Both the position numbers and the translations under genes were made by a program. A stretch of 37,840 bases of DNA from Gammaproteobacteria bacterium (GTDB lineage: Bacteria; Pseudomonadota; Gammaproteobacteria; GRL18). The stretch covers positions 1 through 37,840 of the forward strand of contig JAPHSW010000011.1 of assembly GCA_026196615.1 (NCBI GenBank), in the 5' to 3' direction. The notes below the pieces were generated by a model, which saw nothing but the letters and a program-made list of their open reading frames with translations, had not been told where the DNA came from and did not search any database. Shown one piece after another: positions 7,308 through 37,840 of this stretch. The first letter of the stretch is position 1, and each line of letters starts with the position of its first letter.

Positions 7308-8012
7308 TTAAAACCATGCTTTTATACCTAATACAAATTGCACGTCATCATCCTCTTCACCTTCCTCTTTTGCGTAATCTTTTGTATTACCATATTTTTT
7401 GTTCCAATTAACACCAATATAGGGTGCAAATTCACGTTTGAACTCATAACGCAATCTTAAACCTAACTGAGTATCTGATAAACCAGAACCCGTTCCGGTT
7501 TCTTTGTCATTTTTCGCATGAAAATTAATTTCAAATTCAGGTGATAACACCACTTTTTGTGTAAACATCCATTCATATTCCGCCTCAAAGCGAAAATTTG
7601 ACTGACCTGATTCACCAAGAAACAATGCGGCATTGACCTCAAACCAATACGGTGCCAGACCTTCGATACCCACAGCCAGCCAATCTCTGGTTGGTCTTGG
7701 TTTTTCATCATGACGCCATCCTATTTGGAAATCCCAGTATGGAGATATGGCACGACTGTAAAGCGCCTGTAATTCCAACTCCTCATTATCACCATCGACC
7801 CACTCACTATCAATTTTGTACCAGAATTTATTCAGGTCTTTTCCTATCCATCCTTGTGCCTCCAGTACCAGAGGATCATCACCATCGGTCATTCGTGTTT
7901 CAAATTGATCAATCATAAATTTTGCTACAACAGGATCATCTTCCATTCCGTCTGCATAAACGACATTAGTTAATAGACCAACCAAAGTTGTGGCTAATAA
8001 TATTTTTTTCAT
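7308..8012 (-). CDS. copB: Copper resistance protein B, outer-membrane beta-barrel
   Basis: 234 aa from the ATG at 8012. The frame is open further upstream into copA, but AAGGAGA immediately before 8012 and a clear signal peptide (MKKILLATTLVGLLTNVVYA) fix the start. The mature protein is a CopB-type barrel with amphipathic strands such as YWFEVNAALFL and LGLRLRYEF, YSRAISPYWDFQIGWRHD, and the C-terminal aromatic QFVLGIKAWF usual in outer-membrane proteins. The acidic loop EEGEEDDDVQF is near the end. It lacks the long Met-rich N-terminal region found in some CopB proteins. It follows copA by 12 nt, the standard copAB order. Likely role: copper handling or efflux at the outer membrane. Confidence 0.92.
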   Translation of the reverse strand: MKKILLATTLVGLLTNVVYADGMEDDPVVAKFMIDQFETRMTDGDDPLVLEAQGWIGKDLNKFWYKIDSEWVDGDNEELELQALYSRAISPYWDFQIGWRHDEKPRPTRDWLAVGIEGLAPYWFEVNAALFLGESGQSNFRFEAEYEWMFTQKVVLSPEFEINFHAKNDKETGTGSGLSDTQLGLRLRYEFKREFAPYIGVNWNKKYGNTKDYAKEEGEEDDDVQFVLGIKAWF

Positions 8013-8023
8013 TGATATTCTCC

Positions 8024-10021
8024 TTAACTCACCACTACTTTTCTGAACATACCCAGCATATGATATAGAAGATGGCAATGATAAGCCCATCCCCCCATCG
8101 CATCAGCTGTGACCAGATAGCTTATTTGAGCTCCTGGCTGAACAATAATAGTATGTTTCCTTGGAATGTAATCGGGATCACCCGTTTCTAAATCGCTCCA
8201 CATACCGTGAAGGTGAATGGGATGATTCATCATCGTGTCGTTTATAAGATTGATTCTGACTCGCTCTCCATATTTAAGCTGTAGCGGCTCAGCGTCAGCA
8301 AATTTAATACCGTTCATAGACCACATATAACGGCTCATATTACCTGTTAGATGCAGGTTTATCTCCCGACCAGGTTCTCTTGGATCTGGTGTCTTATTTA
8401 GATTTTTTAAATCTGAATAGGTTAACACCCTTCGGTTGTTATTGCGTAAACCAACCCCTGGATCGTCCAGTCTGTACATGGGTGCATCCGCTCTCATATC
8501 AACATGAGGGCCATATTCTGACTTTTCATGAACAATTTTTTGATTGCTGCCAAACCCTGCTTTTCCTGTACCCATTTTTTCTGTCGATATATTGTGTTCA
8601 TTAGGATCCATTGCTGGCATATCATGTCCCATTTTAGAATGATCCATAGTTGAATGATCAATCGTGGATGGTTTGGCAGCTGGCATATCATGCCCCATTT
8701 TTGAGTGATCCATCTTTGAATGGTCAACGACAGGAGGCTTACTTGTCGGCATATCATGTCCCATCTTAGAATGATCCATTTGTCCCATTGAGTCATGATC
8801 CATACCTCCGTGATCCATCATACTCATATCCATACCCATATCCCCATGACTGAGTATTGGAGCTGGATCCATTGGTGGAACATCAATGGTTAAAGAATGA
8901 TCTGGCGTTAGGGTGCCTCTTGCGTATCCTGAACGATCAATTGCCTGAGAAAAAATACTATAGGCTCTATCATCACTGGGTTCGACAATTACATCATAGG
9001 TTTCTGCTACGCCAATTCTAAACTCATCTATGCTGACGGGCTGAACGTATTGCCCATCAGCGGCAACAACAGTCATTTTTAAACCTGGGATACGGACATC
9101 AAAGAATGTCATGGCCGCTGCATTAATAAAGCGTAATAAGATTTTTTCACCTTTTTTGAATAATCCCGTCCAACCGACATCGGGTGTCTGGCCGTTTGTT
9201 AAAAAGGTATAGGTATATCCTGTTATATCAGAAATATCTCGATCAGACATTCTCATATCATTCCACATGCCACGGTTAGCCCAAAAATTTTCCCAGCCAC
9301 TTTCATTAATTTCCTTCATTGCATCACTAATGGTTCGTTCTCTAAAATTGTAATAATGGCTGAGCTTTTTGAGTTTGTGATAAACGTTATCAGGATCTTC
9401 ATCACTCCAATCGGATAGCACCACTACATAATCCCGATCATATTGATAAGGTGGCGGCTCAATGGGATCAATGACAATAGCACCATAAGCACCTGTCTGT
9501 TCCTGAAAGCCGGAATGGCTATGATACCAGTAAGTACCACTTTGAATGACGGGGAATTGATAACGAAAGGTTTCTCCTGGTTTAATCCCCTTAAAGCCGT
9601 CACTAATATTAGGCACTCCATCCTGAGAACTGGGTAAAATTAGACCATGCCAGTGTATTGAGGTGTCATAGGGCATATTGTTTGTTACATTTAATGCTAC
9701 TGTTTCACCTTCTTTGAAACGTAACACAGGTGCGGGAACTGAGCCATTAATTGCCGTTGCAATACGCTGCTTTCCAGTTAAATTAATGGGAGTCTCTGAA
9801 TAACTCAGATTAAATTGATTACCTCTTAATACTGTTGGGCCAATATTCGACTTTAATGCATAGGCTGATTGAGAACTAAATCCCAGCCCAAGCCCCATCA
9901 TGGCACCGCCTGTCGCCAGACCAGTTACAAATCGACGCCGACTCAAATCAGTTATAGAATGATTAATTTCGTTGCAGTGAAACAGTTCTGATAAGAGCTT
10001 CTGATGTTTTTCAGTAGTCAT
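8024..10021 (-). CDS. copA: Tat-exported multicopper oxidase of copper resistance (CopA type)
   Basis: 665 aa from ATG 10021, preferred over ATG 10045 because GGTGAG precedes it. A twin-arginine signal (SRRRFV at 27-32) exports the folded enzyme. All four copper-site motifs are present: HWHG (123-126), WYHSHS (165-170), HPIHLHG (600-606) and HCHLLYHM (648-655), so the T1 and trinuclear sites look intact. Around residues 405-490 is a Met/His-rich region with a 22-residue tandem repeat built on MDHSKMGHDMP, probably for binding Cu(I). Likely activity: oxidation and sequestration of periplasmic copper. It heads a copA-copB pair and reads away from the DUF411 gene in the same direction, so it is probably driven by the promoter at 10636. 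Confidence 0.95.
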   Translation of the reverse strand: MTTEKHQKLLSELFHCNEINHSITDLSRRRFVTGLATGGAMMGLGLGFSSQSAYALKSNIGPTVLRGNQFNLSYSETPINLTGKQRIATAINGSVPAPVLRFKEGETVALNVTNNMPYDTSIHWHGLILPSSQDGVPNISDGFKGIKPGETFRYQFPVIQSGTYWYHSHSGFQEQTGAYGAIVIDPIEPPPYQYDRDYVVVLSDWSDEDPDNVYHKLKKLSHYYNFRERTISDAMKEINESGWENFWANRGMWNDMRMSDRDISDITGYTYTFLTNGQTPDVGWTGLFKKGEKILLRFINAAAMTFFDVRIPGLKMTVVAADGQYVQPVSIDEFRIGVAETYDVIVEPSDDRAYSIFSQAIDRSGYARGTLTPDHSLTIDVPPMDPAPILSHGDMGMDMSMMDHGGMDHDSMGQMDHSKMGHDMPTSKPPVVDHSKMDHSKMGHDMPAAKPSTIDHSTMDHSKMGHDMPAMDPNEHNISTEKMGTGKAGFGSNQKIVHEKSEYGPHVDMRADAPMYRLDDPGVGLRNNNRRVLTYSDLKNLNKTPDPREPGREINLHLTGNMSRYMWSMNGIKFADAEPLQLKYGERVRINLINDTMMNHPIHLHGMWSDLETGDPDYIPRKHTIIVQPGAQISYLVTADAMGGWAYHCHLLYHMLGMFRKVVVS
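8615..8779 (-). repeat. 66-bp in-frame tandem repeat in copA
   Basis: Two and a half copies with start codons of the unit (Met of MDHSKMGHDMP) at 8779, 8713 and 8647, exactly 66 bp apart. Each unit adds one Met/His copper-binding motif, so unit number would change metal capacity without breaking the frame. Confidence 0.85.
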
Positions 10022-10067
10022 ATTTTTCTCACCATTGATGTACAATTATCGATGTGCATTTTTTTGA

Positions 10068-10565
10068 TTAGTATTGATTAACTTCTTTAAGTTTGCCTTG
10101 CTTATCAAACTCATAGACCGAGTATCTATCCTTTCTATTGCCTTCCATACCAGATGAGCCCATTGGCATACCAGGAACCGTTAATCCTGCAACATTCCTT
10201 TTCTCAGCTAATAATTTTTTAATATCATTTGCGGGAACGTGACCTTCAATGACATAGTCATCAATAAAAGCAGTGTGACAGGAACCCGCACCAGCTGGAA
10301 TGCCAGCTTTTTGTTTAATTTTCGATAAGTTAGTTTTATCGATAGCTTTGACTTTAAAGCCATTTTCCTCCAGATGTGTTATCCATTCTTTACAACATCC
10401 ACAGGTAGGTGATTTATAAACCGTGACAATACTCTCTTCGGCATAACTTTGCCCTCTTGTATTGAACTGGGTCACTACTATCGAAATTAAAAGAAAGCCA
10501 AATGCACCTAATAATGAATATCGAAGATATTTCTTACTCGCTTTGTTGTGTTTTTGTTGTTTCAC
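10068..10565 (-). CDS. Membrane-anchored DUF411 (CopG-like) copper protein
   Basis: 165 aa from GTG 10565. AGGAG lies 9 nt before it, whereas the ATG at 10592 has no ribosome site. One transmembrane helix (LLGAFGFLLISIVV) anchors a DUF411 domain: VYKSPTCGCCKEW with three cysteines, GAGSCHTAFID, VIEGHVPANDIKKLL, and the Met-rich VPGMPMGSSGME. DUF411 proteins have a thioredoxin-like fold and in other bacteria (where called CopG) bind copper at the Cys cluster. It lies 46 bp upstream of copA on the same strand, and its promoter region carries the shared operator. Likely a periplasmic copper-binding or redox partner of CopA. Confidence 0.88.
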   Translation of the reverse strand: MKQQKHNKASKKYLRYSLLGAFGFLLISIVVTQFNTRGQSYAEESIVTVYKSPTCGCCKEWITHLEENGFKVKAIDKTNLSKIKQKAGIPAGAGSCHTAFIDDYVIEGHVPANDIKKLLAEKRNVAGLTVPGMPMGSSGMEGNRKDRYSVYEFDKQGKLKEVNQY

Positions 10566-10635
10566 AATTTTAGTCTCCTGAAAGTGACTCATAATTGAAC
10601 TTGAACAGTTTTACATCTCTTTAGCTACTAGGTAC

Positions 10636-10758
10636 ATTTTACGGACATGACTTAACACGAACCTTACACAAACATTAAATAAATTTAATGTTTATACAAA
10701 GATGAATTAAATTTAATGTTTGTGTAAGGTTTCAGAAAGATTCCATATGAGACAATAA
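10636..10758. promoter_or_regulatory. Divergent CopR-type promoter region with triple operator
   Basis: CCTTACACAAACATTAAAT (10662-10680) and ATTTAATGTTTGTGTAAGG (10711-10729) are perfect inverted repeats. A third, imperfect arm ATTTAATGTTTATACAAAG (10683-10701) makes a compact palindrome with the first. On the minus strand TAAAAT (10641-10636) is 20 bp beyond the left arm, toward the DUF411-copA-copB genes. On the plus strand CAATAA (10753-10758) is 23 bp beyond the right arm, toward the copRS operon. One regulator could thus drive both sides. CopR is the natural candidate; this is inference. Confidence 0.6.
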
Positions 10759-10826
10759 AGTCATAGAAAATACTTATTCATATAAAGATTAATCATAATT
10801 TTCTGGTTATTTATTGGAGAACCCTC

Positions 10827-11021
10827 ATGAAAGATACAAACAAAAAGAATCTGGCAGTTAACGCACTGATACTATTAATGTTACTCCTGCTATTCTTCTC
10901 AGGGTCACTCATGTGGACACAACATAACCAGTACCACAAAACATTTTGGAATACTGATAGCAATACACAATACAATTCAACCAATCACATGAACTGGCTT
11001 AATAGCAATAGTTCTCGTTAA
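10827..11021 (+). CDS. Small single-pass membrane protein
   Basis: 64 aa, not recognised as a named family. One helix (about residues 10-29, VNALILLMLLLLFFSGSLMW) is followed by a polar tail rich in Asn, His, Trp and Ser (TQHNQYHKTFWNTDSN), which should face the periplasm. GGAGA 7 nt before the ATG supports translation. It is the first gene after the divergent copper promoter and leads a co-directional run ending in copS. The His/Trp/Asn-rich tail could bind metal or serve as a lure for the sensor; this is speculation. Confidence 0.6.
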   Translation: MKDTNKKNLAVNALILLMLLLLFFSGSLMWTQHNQYHKTFWNTDSNTQYNSTNHMNWLNSNSSR

Positions 11022-11063
11022 TTATAAAAAACACTTGGGACTCTATCTTTTTGGAGGTTTATT

Positions 11064-11255
11064 ATGTTCTGGATCTTATTATTAATTACTGTGGCGGTTA
11101 TTGCTCTATCATTAAACCAATCTGATTTTTTTGAATCAGAGAATAATATCTCTAAACAATCAAAATATCCCATAGAAATCTTAAATGAGCGTTATGCTCG
11201 TGGTGAAGTAGAGACGTCTGAATACAGAAAACTCAAGAAAGAGCTTTTAAATTAA
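11064..11255 (+). CDS. Small SHOCT-domain membrane protein, paralogue of 6973-7218
   Basis: 63 aa. One N-terminal transmembrane helix (FWILLLITVAVIALSL), an acidic linker, and a SHOCT module PIEILNERYARGEVETSEY followed by RKLKKELLN. The SHOCT part aligns closely with that of the protein at 6973-7218 (EILxxRYxxGExxxxEYKxxK). GGAGG lies 8 nt before the ATG. It is in the putative copRS operon, 42 bp after the previous gene. Function unknown; both copies are under putative copper-response promoters. Confidence 0.72.
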   Translation: MFWILLLITVAVIALSLNQSDFFESENNISKQSKYPIEILNERYARGEVETSEYRKLKKELLN

Positions 11256-11300
11256 AAGCTCTCATCACACAATGCTTTCTATATTTTAACGTGGATTGAA

Positions 11301-11714
11301 ATGAATAAACTGATATTACTTGTTATAACGAGCATCATTTCTATTAATACCAGCTGGTCTCATGGGGTTAGCAATACGGCATCAACTTTTATTGCTTCAC
11401 CACAAAATGGTGCCAAAGTGACCAATCCTATTACAGTCAAATTTGGTATTAAACATTTCAAGATTGCCCCTGCTGGAGAAAATATCCATAAAGCAGGCCA
11501 TTATCATCTTTTGATTGATTTAAAGTCTGAATTATCAATGGATAAGCCTATTCCTTCTGATATTAACCACCGACATTTCGATAAAGGTGAATCAGAAACC
11601 ACTATATCATTGAATCCTGGTACACATAGCTTACAATTAGTGGTAGGGGATGAGGAACATGAACCCTTTGAAGAACTTATTTCTGAAAAAATCATGATTG
11701 AAGTGATTAAATAA
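11301..11714 (+). CDS. Exported DUF4399 family protein
   Basis: 137 aa. Signal peptide residues 1-20 (MNKLILLVITSIISINTSWS), then an immunoglobulin-like beta domain: FIASPQNGAKVTNPITVKFG, KIAPAGENIHKAGHYHLLID, the HRHFDKGESETTISLNPG segment and LQLVVGDEEHEPF. These match the DUF4399 pattern, which resembles CopC only loosely. The conserved GHYHLLID histidines and HRHF are plausible copper ligands. It ends 1 nt before copR, so the two are translationally linked. Likely a periplasmic copper-binding accessory; the biochemical role is not established. Confidence 0.82.
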   Translation: MNKLILLVITSIISINTSWSHGVSNTASTFIASPQNGAKVTNPITVKFGIKHFKIAPAGENIHKAGHYHLLIDLKSELSMDKPIPSDINHRHFDKGESETTISLNPGTHSLQLVVGDEEHEPFEELISEKIMIEVIK

Positions 11715-11715
11715 T

Positions 11716-12393
11716 ATGCGAATTCTACTTATTGAAGATGATAAAAATGTTGCTGATTTTATTGTCAAAGGTCTGAGCGAAAATAATCATGTCGTTGATC
11801 ATCAGCTTGACGGTAAAGAAGGTCTTTTCTTTGCCACAACTGAATCCTATGATGTGATGATAATCGATAGAATGCTTCCCTATGTGGATGGGTTAACCAT
11901 TATCCGTACTATCAGAGCCTCTAAAATCAAAACGCCTGTCATTATTCTCAGTGCTATGGCTGATGTAGAACAACGAGTTGAAGGCCTACAAAACGGTGCT
12001 GATGACTATCTGGTGAAACCATTTGCTTTTGCCGAATTGTTGGCAAGAGTTGAAATATTGGGAAAACGAATCAATAGCTCTGAGTCTCAGGAAACAAAAC
12101 TGCAACTGGCAGATTTGACCATTGATTTACTGACCCATACGGTTACACGTAATAATCAAAGCATTAACCTGTTAGCAACAGAATATCGATTGCTTGAATA
12201 TCTTATGAGAAACGCTGGTCATGTCGTCTCTCGTATTATGTTGTTTGAACATGTCTGGGATTACAATTTTGATCCGCAAACGAATGTTATTGACGTTCAT
12301 ATGAGTCGTTTAAGAAAAAAAATTGATAAACCATTTGATAAAGCACTCATCCATACAATACGAGGATCGGGTTATGTAATTAAAAATACATAA
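11716..12393 (+). CDS. copR: OmpR-family response regulator, CopR/CusR type
   Basis: 225 aa. Receiver domain 1-115 with acidic pocket EDD (7-9), phospho-acceptor Asp51 in MIIDRMLP, and the conserved Lys in YLVKPFAFAEL. The C-terminal winged helix (about 130-225) contains INLLATEYRLLEYLMRNAG, FDPQTNVIDVHMSRLRKK and the closing IRGSGYVI. It is co-transcribed with the histidine kinase 7 bp downstream, and copper-resistance genes surround it. The assignment to copper rests on context: this is the only response regulator in the copper island, so it is the leading candidate to bind the inverted-repeat boxes at 5522, 6813 and 10662. Confidence 0.9.
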   Translation: MRILLIEDDKNVADFIVKGLSENNHVVDHQLDGKEGLFFATTESYDVMIIDRMLPYVDGLTIIRTIRASKIKTPVIILSAMADVEQRVEGLQNGADDYLVKPFAFAELLARVEILGKRINSSESQETKLQLADLTIDLLTHTVTRNNQSINLLATEYRLLEYLMRNAGHVVSRIMLFEHVWDYNFDPQTNVIDVHMSRLRKKIDKPFDKALIHTIRGSGYVIKNT

Positions 12394-13990: not shown

Positions 13991-14329
13991 ATGGATATGG
14001 ATAAGACTCTTAATAGTCTAAGTGAAATAAATACAAAATTACAAGATGAAATGGCGCTTGTTATTTATTTTAGCTCACCGACATGTAGTGTGTGCAAGAT
14101 TCTAAGACCTAAAATTATGCAGGCACTTGCAAAAGAATATCCTTCTATTGGTCGATATCATGCGGATTTGACTCTTACGCCAGACTTTGCAGAGAAATTT
14201 CAGGTCTTTTCGGCACCAACAATTATTGTTTTTTTTGAAGGACGTGAATTTATTCGAAAGGGAATAGCAATGAGTGTTAACGGTTTACTTCAAGAAATTA
14301 AGCGTCCATATGAATTGATGATGTCATGA
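13991..14329 (+). CDS. Thioredoxin-like protein with CSVC active site
   Basis: 112 aa, the length of a thioredoxin. The redox motif is CSVC (Cys32-Cys35) in YFSSPTCSVCKILRP instead of the usual CGPC. The cis-proline segment VFSAPTIIVFFEG is intact, and no signal peptide is present, so it is cytoplasmic. It is convergent with the tandem TusE gene across a strong hairpin and lies just outside the hydrogenase operon. A reductant for the neighbouring TusE-type cysteine is conceivable but unproven. The altered CxxC dipeptide should change redox potential relative to standard thioredoxin. Confidence 0.85.
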   Translation: MDMDKTLNSLSEINTKLQDEMALVIYFSSPTCSVCKILRPKIMQALAKEYPSIGRYHADLTLTPDFAEKFQVFSAPTIIVFFEGREFIRKGIAMSVNGLLQEIKRPYELMMS

Positions 14330-14411: not shown

Positions 14412-15170
14412 TTAATCAATACACCCCTGAGGTTCTGGTAAACCAGCAATACGACTACCTTGGCGGGAAGGACCTAATGGGAATAATTTGTAGAGATATT
14501 TTTCAGTAATATGGTCACCATATTGTTGATGCATATATTTCGTCAGTAATCTGACCATGGGAGTCAATCCATATTTGAAGTAAAATTTACGCAAAAAATC
14601 AATAACTTCCCAATGCTCTTCGGTGAGTTTTATATTCTCTTTATTGGCCATATATTCAGCTAGATCATCATTCCAGGAATCCTGATAATCCTCCAGAAGA
14701 TTGCCAAAGCGGCTGACTTTATAAGTTCTACCTTCATAGCTAAATTCACCTTCAAAATGCTTATTTAATTCTTCGGCAGATTTGACTATTTTCAAATTAG
14801 CTCTGTTATTCCCCCAGGTTTCATGTTCCAGTTCAGCATCGAGCATGGGCATTGGGAGGCCAGCAATTCGAGTACCTTGAAGTAGTACATTTCCTGGAAA
14901 AAGAGTGTCAAGATATTCATCTGTTGCTTTATTTGTATCATCCAGTTTTTCTCGAATACAATTTTTTAGCAATTTCTTGATTGGTGATATATTAAATTGG
15001 GTATAAAATTCTCTCATAATATTAATGATATCCCAATGTGCATCGGAGAGATTAATATTGTCTTTTTCAGCTAGAATTTTGGCAGCATCATCGTTCCAGT
15101 CTTCCATGTGTAAAAGACGTCCGTCAGCAGTAGTTTCTAAATCTCTTTGGCTAACAGTAATAGTAGACAT
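14412..15170 (-). CDS. Tandem two-domain TusE/DsrC-family sulfur-relay protein
   Basis: 252 aa from ATG 15170; AAGGGGG upstream decides this start over 15218. It consists of two TusE/DsrC domains joined in one chain. Domain 1 (about 8-110) has DWNDDAAKILAEKDNINLS, HWDIINIMREFY and GTRIAGLPMPM. Domain 2 (about 140-252) has SWNDDLAEYMANKENIKLT, HWEVIDFLRKFYFKYGLTP, YLYKLFPLGPSRQGSRIAGLP and the terminal EPQGCID. Only domain 2 keeps the C-terminal reactive cysteine (Cys250); domain 1 ends PMPML without it. The second cysteine of true DsrC is absent in both, so chemistry should be TusE-like persulfide transfer. TusE and DsrC are normally single domains of about 110 aa. It is divergent from the hydrogenase operon. 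Confidence 0.85.
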   Translation of the reverse strand: MSTITVSQRDLETTADGRLLHMEDWNDDAAKILAEKDNINLSDAHWDIINIMREFYTQFNISPIKKLLKNCIREKLDDTNKATDEYLDTLFPGNVLLQGTRIAGLPMPMLDAELEHETWGNNRANLKIVKSAEELNKHFEGEFSYEGRTYKVSRFGNLLEDYQDSWNDDLAEYMANKENIKLTEEHWEVIDFLRKFYFKYGLTPMVRLLTKYMHQQYGDHITEKYLYKLFPLGPSRQGSRIAGLPEPQGCID

Positions 15171-15480
15171 TTGTGGATTCCCCCTTATTAGTACTCTGTA
15201 TATAAAGATTAGGAACAAGTTTTAAATATTGCAAGAAACACCTACAAAAAAACTCAGTTATTGGGTATATGCAAATTTGTGTCCATTTTTATATCATGCT
15301 TTTTAGCTCAGGATATTGACTATGAAATACCGAGAGAAAAGTTTTCTTTAATCGAGTGGCTAGCTTTTAATCTCTCATTTATATAGAACCGTGAGACATA
15401 AGTAGAATAATAATCAAAATGACTAATGCGCTTTCACTTTTCTTTAAATATTAATCAATATGTTCTTCTGTGCGGATAGT

Positions 15481-15593: not shown

Positions 15594-15609
15594 TGGCATA
15601 TGCCTTGCA
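15594..15609 (+). promoter_or_regulatory. Sigma-54 (-24/-12) promoter of the hox/hyp operon
   Basis: TGGCATATGCCTTGCA matches the consensus TGGCAC-N5-TTGCA with exact spacing of the GG and GC doublets. The predicted transcript start is near 15620, about 29 nt before the hoxV ATG, leaving room for the AGAGG ribosome site. The operon itself encodes a sigma-54 activator, HoxA. Confidence 0.8.
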
Positions 15610-37319: not shown

Positions 37320-37840
37320 TTAACTCTTTTTCATTGTTGGGTAGTCGGTGTAACCTTTTGGACCAGGTGAATAAAAAGTATCTGGATCAGCATCATTTAA
37401 TGTTGCTTTGGCTTTAATTCGTTCAGGTAAGTCAGGATTTGCAAGAAATGGAACACCAAAAGCAACTGCATCAAATTTATTGTTTTCAATACCAATACTG
37501 GCCTCTTCTGCTGTAAATCCCATATTTGCAATCAGTGTGCCAGTATAGTGTTGACGGATTGGAGTCATAATATCCCCCGTTTGTTGCTGAAAAAAATCAC
37601 CGCGCATAACATGTAAATAAGCTAAATTATAATGATTTAATTTTTTTGCAAGCCAGGTTGATAAACCAATGGGATCGCTATCAAGCATACTGTTGTAGCT
37701 ATTTAATGGTGAAATGCGTAAACCCACTTTACTACTTTCATAGATATTACAAACAACATCTAATACCTCAAGTAAGAGTCTGGCACGATTTTCAATGCTA
37801 CCACCATATTTTCCCTGGCGTTTATTGGAACCATCACGTA
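37320..37840 (-). CDS. nemA: Old-yellow-enzyme flavoprotein, 5' truncated (NemA type)
   Basis: The C-terminal 172 or so residues; the gene continues past the right edge. The frame enters as RDGSNKRQGKYGGSIENRAR, the OYE signature DGSNxRxDxYGGSxENR, then VGLRISP, the central LAYLHVMRG, LIANMGFTAEEAS, and the FMN-barrel closing part FDAVAFGVPFLANPDLPERI. The frame ends YTDYPTMKKS. Such enzymes reduce electrophilic alkenes (N-ethylmaleimide, nitro compounds) with NAD(P)H. The start, and thus regulation, lies outside the window. Confidence 0.9.
   Translation of the reverse strand, partial: RDGSNKRQGKYGGSIENRARLLLEVLDVVCNIYESSKVGLRISPLNSYNSMLDSDPIGLSTWLAKKLNHYNLAYLHVMRGDFFQQQTGDIMTPIRQHYTGTLIANMGFTAEEASIGIENNKFDAVAFGVPFLANPDLPERIKAKATLNDADPDTFYSPGPKGYTDYPTMKKS

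Follow-up and report, generated by a model that had tools for sequence, protein, structure and literature searches.

The window, the whole 37,840-nucleotide stretch of DNA analysed here, encodes on its minus strand (14412..15170) a 252-residue protein formed from two DsrC/TusE-family domains joined by a linker. It is a real and conserved variant within a known family, and one of which we have found no description, open-licence PMC papers yielding no account of a two-domain or tandem DsrC. The interpretation that we favour, and to which we give slightly under an even chance, is that it is a dedicated DsrC/TusE paralogue derived from one ancient fusion and serving as an accessory of some reverse-Dsr oxidizers, in which domain 2 would carry a persulfide and domain 1 would dock. 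The partner, the persulfide chemistry and the docking role of the protein are what we infer from the observations set out below.

The gene starts with an ATG at 15170 and ends with a TAA stop codon (14412-14414), and its assignment is based on profile matches, full-length homologues and dN/dS. An alternative longer frame opening with TTG reaches 15218, which the two-domain protein does not need. Upstream of the ATG the sequence contains a ribosome-binding-like AAGGGGG run (15180..15186, minus strand), with AGGGGGAAT kept in the sister genome described below. The protein matches PF04358 (Pfam DsrC; E 4.6e-63, 210.8 bits against a cut-off of 24.9) and TIGR03342 (E 5.6e-63, 210 against 53.5), each over two stretches, which places it in the DsrC/TusE/DsvC family. 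In a genome search both halves singly exceed the Pfam cut-off (117.7 bits for domain 2 and 96.6 bits for domain 1), and the two are identical at 39 of 98 positions. Domain 1 (residues ~1-112; 14835..15170, minus strand) is assigned a DsrC fold with an arm without cysteine by profile, alignment and structure match. A variable linker (residues ~113-141; 14748..14834, minus strand), recognized by low identity and low model confidence, then leads into domain 2 (residues ~142-252; 14415..14747, minus strand), which is assigned a TusE-like DsrC fold with one cysteine by profile, sequence and structure match. The C-terminus of domain 2 reads AGLPEPQGC(250)ID, while domain 1 has AGLPMPMLDAE in its arm. 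The only remaining cysteine of the protein is C71, the column of which is not invariant among the homologues. The original prediction of two TusE/DsrC domains in one protein, with a cysteine in the second only, was thus correct in its coordinates and its reading of the sequence, and for the second half a role as sulfur carrier would be the natural reading. The first half may, as was also proposed, be dimer-mimicking or regulatory.

An AlphaFold2 model built from the 18-row alignment of homologues has a mean pLDDT of 85.4 and a pTM of 0.64, the linker being poorly modelled (pLDDT <50 at residues 111-130). Eight DsrC-family chains superimpose on the model with Z scores of 12.3-17.6, seven of them on domain 1 and one on domain 2. 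The same eight chains are recovered by Foldseek (E 3e-7 to 9e-5, one half per match), and each half of the predicted model has the DsrC fold separately. DsrC from Allochromatium vinosum (PDB 1yx3) shares the fold predicted for domain 1 (Z 17.6 over 111 residues) and matches domain 2 in sequence (E 3.3e-26). It also shares the last cysteine, which PMC3397948 gives as the persulfide site in DsrC, persulfuration in A. vinosum occurring at the penultimate cysteine only. The window protein differs from A. vinosum DsrC in having two domains, in carrying Ser239 in place of the upstream cysteine, in that its last cysteine is not penultimate, and in lying outside a dsr cluster.

Residue conservation was counted over the alignment of 18 full-length loci from 17 genomes. 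Cys250 (codon 14421..14423, minus strand), the predicted persulfide carrier, is the sole cysteine conserved in all 18, and across the family it is followed by two, three or more residues and so is not penultimate. Ser239 (codon 14454..14456, minus strand) occupies the site of the upstream cysteine of two-Cys DsrC and is likewise serine in 18/18; the consensus of 36 rows with KPTGCV or KPTGCI tails has a cysteine (QAC) at this position. With Ser239 and Cys250 at every locus, the family has only one of the two C-terminal-arm cysteines of canonical DsrC. In an ungapped register the sulfur-carrying cysteine is faced in domain 1 by Asp111 (codon 14838..14840, minus strand; Asp in 18/18), and Asp252 lies opposite Glu113, which is also invariant (18/18). 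The residue two positions beyond the cysteine in domain 2 is acidic (Asp or Glu) at every one of the 18 loci, and K66-L67-L68 and other columns of domain 1 are invariant as well. The alignment makes it likely but not certain that Asp111 replaces the arm cysteine, because the register is alignment-dependent: a MAFFT run with other paralogues introduces a gap, so that Asp111 falls opposite Asp252 (the last Asp of domain 2) and not opposite Cys250.

Mean pairwise identity over the family is 51% for domain 1, 64% for domain 2 and 26% for residues 114-143, domain 1 diverging faster than domain 2. Both halves are under purifying selection (dN/dS ~0.04), the values for the window and its sister being 0.043 for domain 1 and 0.035 for domain 2; this is a single close pair with dS of 0.6 and 1.7, respectively, so that the value for domain 2 is approximate. 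The charge of the second helix of the helix–turn–helix (HTH), compared over stretches of 16-18 residues, is +1 to +6 in domain 1 and -2 to +4 in domain 2, where it is 0 in 10/18 loci, and it is +5 in 30 of 60 single-domain rows picked out by pattern. Both halves of the window protein are acidic overall. From these sequences, features that many single-domain DsrC combine seem to have been split, the basic helix going to domain 1 and the cysteine to domain 2.

The genome search for the two-domain architecture that the original prediction called for recovered the full-length protein at 18 loci in 17 genomes, comprising 16 of 369 genomes drawn from the class, that of the window included, and one sister (the class-wide search counted full-length matches with E no higher than 1e-30). 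Full-length copies in 16 genomes besides the window's lie well outside what chance would produce. The sister is a genome of the same genus (G007), with 91% identity to the window protein; the remaining class matches are at 47-58%. Only these two were positive among 57 genomes searched as relatives, and at the level of the genus the protein is present in 2/16 genomes. A phylum draw of 398 genomes returned the window's genome only, the 21 rows listed being all of the same class and other classes perhaps little tested. When genome contigs were scanned with one protein, the sister alone was recovered, on MAG contig JADGEK010000015.1 of isolate BB34. A marine bone microbiome study (PMC7883544) lists a BB34 as an unclassified gammaproteobacterium, which we infer to be the sister's bin. 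One genome (G121) carries two tandem copies of the two-domain gene on contig C147 (L064; 9261-10007 and 10331-11071). Viral or plasmid spread was considered and rejected. The 31 pattern matches obtained when viral contigs were scanned with the 18-row alignment include no relatives, and for the 18 plasmid records found by tblastn the 10 places listed are of 303-324 bases, single domains matched by both halves.

A tree was built from 127 domain rows, the short row L006 being dropped by length and long branches, including L007 and L059, being flagged. All 18 copies of domain 1 group together (100/99), as do all 18 copies of domain 2 (99/94), and neither clade includes a single-domain row. The distances of domain 1 and domain 2 correlate (r 0.72), a value as high being reached in 0/5000 permutations. 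Because each half forms one supported clade, the simple reading is one ancient fusion followed by joint descent of the two halves. On a second contig of G121 (C112, minus strand) a single-domain paralogue, L143, ends in RQGCRIAGLPMPNDCIDHS, with a CID tail like that of domain 2 and both cysteines; it is possibly related to the domain 2 that was fused, a matter which its tree position does not settle.

In this sample the protein is associated with genes of sulfur oxidation. Controls were 23 class-draw genomes without the protein, picked by us at about every fifth handle. A further 11 comparison genomes without it (9 for HoxV) were chosen otherwise, mostly for DsrC-family hits, and among the matches listed no comparison genome has another two-domain DsrC. 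dsrA was scored over the profile cut-off and HoxV at E 1e-15, and all p values are from Fisher tests in which the relatedness of the genomes is ignored. With kinship thus ignored, dsrA co-occurs with the protein as would be expected for a reverse-Dsr accessory, being present in 15/17 two-domain genomes against 6/23 controls (p 1e-4) and 16/34 of all genomes without the protein (p 0.006). On the same basis TusD/DsrE is found in 15/17 against 10/23 (p 0.007) and SoxB in 14/17 against 9/23 (p 0.01). The two-domain genomes without dsrA, G201 and G208, are both also without TusD/DsrE; G208 is 81% complete, and the G201 bin has 4% contamination. In the tree the closest copy to that of G201 (L067, contig C160) belongs to G219, a genome of another family, and the two share one neighbour; the G201 gene lies in a dsrA-less bin, on a contig of 3.9 kb, and mis-binning or transfer may be involved. 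The genomes that have dsrA and no two-domain protein include G003, G006, G016 and G021, which belong to the genus or family of the window. The protein looks like an accessory that is present in some dsr genomes and missing from many.

Profile search of the window's genome reveals five further DsrC-family genes. Because these include a two-Cys DsrC of its own, other genes fill the cysteine role in the main pathway. Close to this DsrC, on contig C134, are a TusD/DsrE hit and a dsrA-profile hit below the cut-off, the latter presumably dsrB. The same genome also has a Cys-less paralogue with an RKGGY tail (C104) and one ending LPDCHCRGL (C178). The remaining two, on contigs C258 and C40 of this genome (G000), are very divergent DsrC-family proteins without the usual C-terminal cysteine arm. 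The RKGGY-tailed paralogues, which we take to be RspA, lie near dsrA in G006 and G007; they share with domain 1 the absence of an arm cysteine, but are single-domain, have a different tail and form a separate clade. A. vinosum, a dsr organism that similarly holds paralogues, has the extra TusE/DsrC/DsvC genes Alvin_0028, 0345, 0732 and 1508, the role of which is unsettled, and the available parts of PMC3368242 and PMC11267869 make no mention of a two-domain form among them.

In the window the two-domain gene is divergent from an operon encoding HoxV-like, HypA, HypB, HypC-like, HypD, HypE and HypX-like proteins, together with a regulator of the NtrC type, a PAS histidine kinase, the small and the large hydrogenase subunit and HypF; the labels Hox, HypC and HypX were assigned by reading. 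On its other flank a thioredoxin-like ORF with a CSVC motif (13991-14329) is convergent with it. Both neighbours had been described correctly for the window. In the sister the hydrogenase-side arrangement is kept, whereas the thioredoxin adjacency is lost and an MFS transporter takes its place. The nearest thioredoxin homologue in the sister, at 40%, is on a different contig, and homologues at 40% occur in 4/10 other genomes of the genus that were searched. In the 15 further two-domain genomes there are 3 distant matches (27-29%), and in six dsr control genomes none. The thioredoxin was rejected as a partner on these grounds, not being adjacent in the sister and having few and distant homologues in two-domain genomes. 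Elsewhere in the window (7308-12393) genes for multicopper oxidase, DUF411 and DUF4399 proteins are followed by an apparent two-component pair, perhaps forming a copper-response cluster.

The 15 distant neighbourhoods, five of them shortened by contig ends (L061, L063, L066, L067 and L072), contain nothing that clusters with the hydrogenase genes of the window. As far as the clustering and reading of these 15 show, the window and its sister (91% identity) are the only places where hydrogenase genes adjoin the two-domain gene. No dsr genes were recognized by eye beside the two-domain gene in the window and the 15 distant neighbourhoods, over up to ~9 kb a side, and the window gene lacks the dsrAB/dsrEFH linkage of canonical DsrC. 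Similarly, no sulfur-relay genes were recognized by eye among the neighbours, ten of which were scanned with Pfam, and the neighbours differ between lineages. Three protein clusters recur, each in 3 loci (two in L065, L066 and L073, one in L066, L073 and L075), and a glmS/ssb/uvrA-like order, named by eye, is found in 2 loci (L071 and L074). The ORFs of these neighbourhoods come from a crude script, which kept false ORFs in GC-rich loci and missed the two-domain gene itself in L066 and L070. At L073 (G144) an ORF that is CysG (siroheme-synthase)-like by eye (606-2039) lies ~7 kb from the two-domain gene; dsrA in this genome is ~35 kb from it.

These neighbourhoods bear on the original proposal that the protein is a module for sulfur transfer linked to the H2-sensing operon, through hydrogenase expression or Fe-S supply, which we now regard as very improbable. 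The divergent arrangement in the window, with the same operon start adjoining the gene in the sister, speaks for it, as does the nominally higher frequency of HoxV with the protein (5/17 against 2/23, p 0.11; against 4/32, p 0.24). Two of these five genomes are, however, the window's and the sister, without which the count is 3/15 (p 0.36). There is no HoxV match at E 1e-15 in the other 12/17, and two genomes of the same genus, G004 and G014, have HoxV but not the two-domain protein. HypD is not enriched relative to controls (10/17 against 11/23, p 0.54; against 19/34, p 1), so that the co-occurrence with HoxV or HypD expected of a hydrogenase accessory was not seen. A sigma-54-type box, TGGCATATGCCTTGCA (15594..15609, plus strand), is an exact match to what we assume to be the sigma-54 consensus and is kept in the sister; it lies ~37 bases before the HoxV-like gene and faces that gene only, not the DsrC gene. 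It would fit control by the NtrC-type regulator of the same operon, but is suggestive only, the window having 5 such boxes with at most one mismatch against 3.7 expected and a second exact one at 37527. Comparison of the intergenic stretch with that of the sister shows both ends conserved and the middle diverged, which suggests that the two-domain gene and the hydrogenase operon are separately controlled. The hydrogenase link was therefore rejected as a general rule, HoxV and HypD being not significantly commoner and the 15 distant neighbourhoods being without hydrogenase genes, and the position beside the H2-sensing genes looks incidental. The outcome that had been named as counting against the proposal, that the architecture is common where hydrogenase is lacking, has largely come about, although it had been envisaged in dsr/tus clusters and the gene lies outside those too.

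The fold itself raises the alternative of a regulator, in which the two HTH-like halves would form a built-in pseudo-dimer on DNA (or RNA) and Cys250 would be a sulfane-sulfur or redox sensor; we allow this a small but real chance. The DsrC of A. vinosum binds DNA, which counts in favour, as does the retention of the basic second helix in domain 1 and mostly not in domain 2; a literature search for DNA binding by A. vinosum DsrC returned nothing related by title. The model also matches HTH regions of Zur/Fur, LexA and sigma factors, but weakly (Z under 5), and a Z score under 8 may reflect merely a common arrangement. An equally basic helix in many single-domain DsrC-family rows, the acidic character of both halves and the lack of a conserved target gene beside the two-domain gene argue against it further. 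It is quite improbable that the protein acts like TusE in the synthesis of 2-thiouridine in tRNA, delivering sulfur to MnmA while domain 1 helps to keep the tRNA in place. The one-Cys domain 2 does resemble Escherichia coli TusE, which has a single C-terminal cysteine and is identical to it at 45/105 residues, and the basic helix of domain 1 would suit such a role. TusE is, however, single-domain, whereas the window protein has an Asp-ended first half, and its presence in 2/16 genomes of the genus is too patchy for a housekeeping tRNA modification. It also scores below the cut-off of the NCBIfam TusE equivalog NF008562 (164.4 against 191 bits, in two stretches), and other one-Cys paralogues, with SANK...GCS tails, are co-resident in two of the two-domain genomes, G087 and G219. 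That domain 1 is a functionless, decaying remnant of a duplication is scarcely credible; its faster divergence is what such a remnant would show, but its dN/dS in the one close pair and the invariance of Asp111, Glu113 and K66-L67-L68 over the 18 loci are not.

In the preferred reading, that of a dedicated accessory paralogue, Cys250 of domain 2 would be persulfurated with sulfane sulfur, for which DsrE of DsrEFH is the most likely donor, and domain 2 would then pass the sulfur to an acceptor that we do not name. In A. vinosum persulfurated DsrEFH donates sulfur to DsrC, and DsrEFH binds DsrC with 1 or 2 DsrC suggested per DsrE2F2H2 hexamer, according to PMC3397948. Because the upstream cysteine is a serine, domain 2 could not run the two-cysteine DsrC cycle, which would be barred to it. 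It is the two-Cys form of DsrC that is used with DsrAB. Domain 1 would be a pseudo-carrier that has kept the fold and the basic second helix and has an acidic Asp-x-Glu in place of the arm cysteine; it would dock without carrying sulfur, perhaps by occupying the other site of a two-fold partner, for example the DsrEFH hexamer. Against this reading stand the differing neighbours, among which no sulfur-relay gene was recognized, the many dsr genomes without the protein and the weaker dsrA association over all 34 comparison genomes, the presence in 2/16 genomes of the genus, the non-penultimate cysteine and the alignment-dependent register of Asp111. A more specific form, which we consider distinctly unlikely, is a built-in two-site ligand, in which the acidic arm of domain 1 would mimic a persulfide arm and plug one site of the partner while the cysteine of domain 2 works the other, the candidate two-fold partner being DsrEFH or DsrAB.

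The oxidation of sulfur in the cytoplasm has DsrC-type carriers at its centre, and sulfur oxidizers hold several paralogues of unsettled role. If the protein is such a two-site ligand, a tethered pseudo-carrier would gate the flow of sulfur in these organisms, a form of control over the DsrC relay that was not met in the literature searched. This joining of an active to an inactive carrier domain, which in this sample is found in dsr genomes in 15/17 cases, offers a defined and testable handle both on the roles of the paralogues and on gating by pseudo-carriers.
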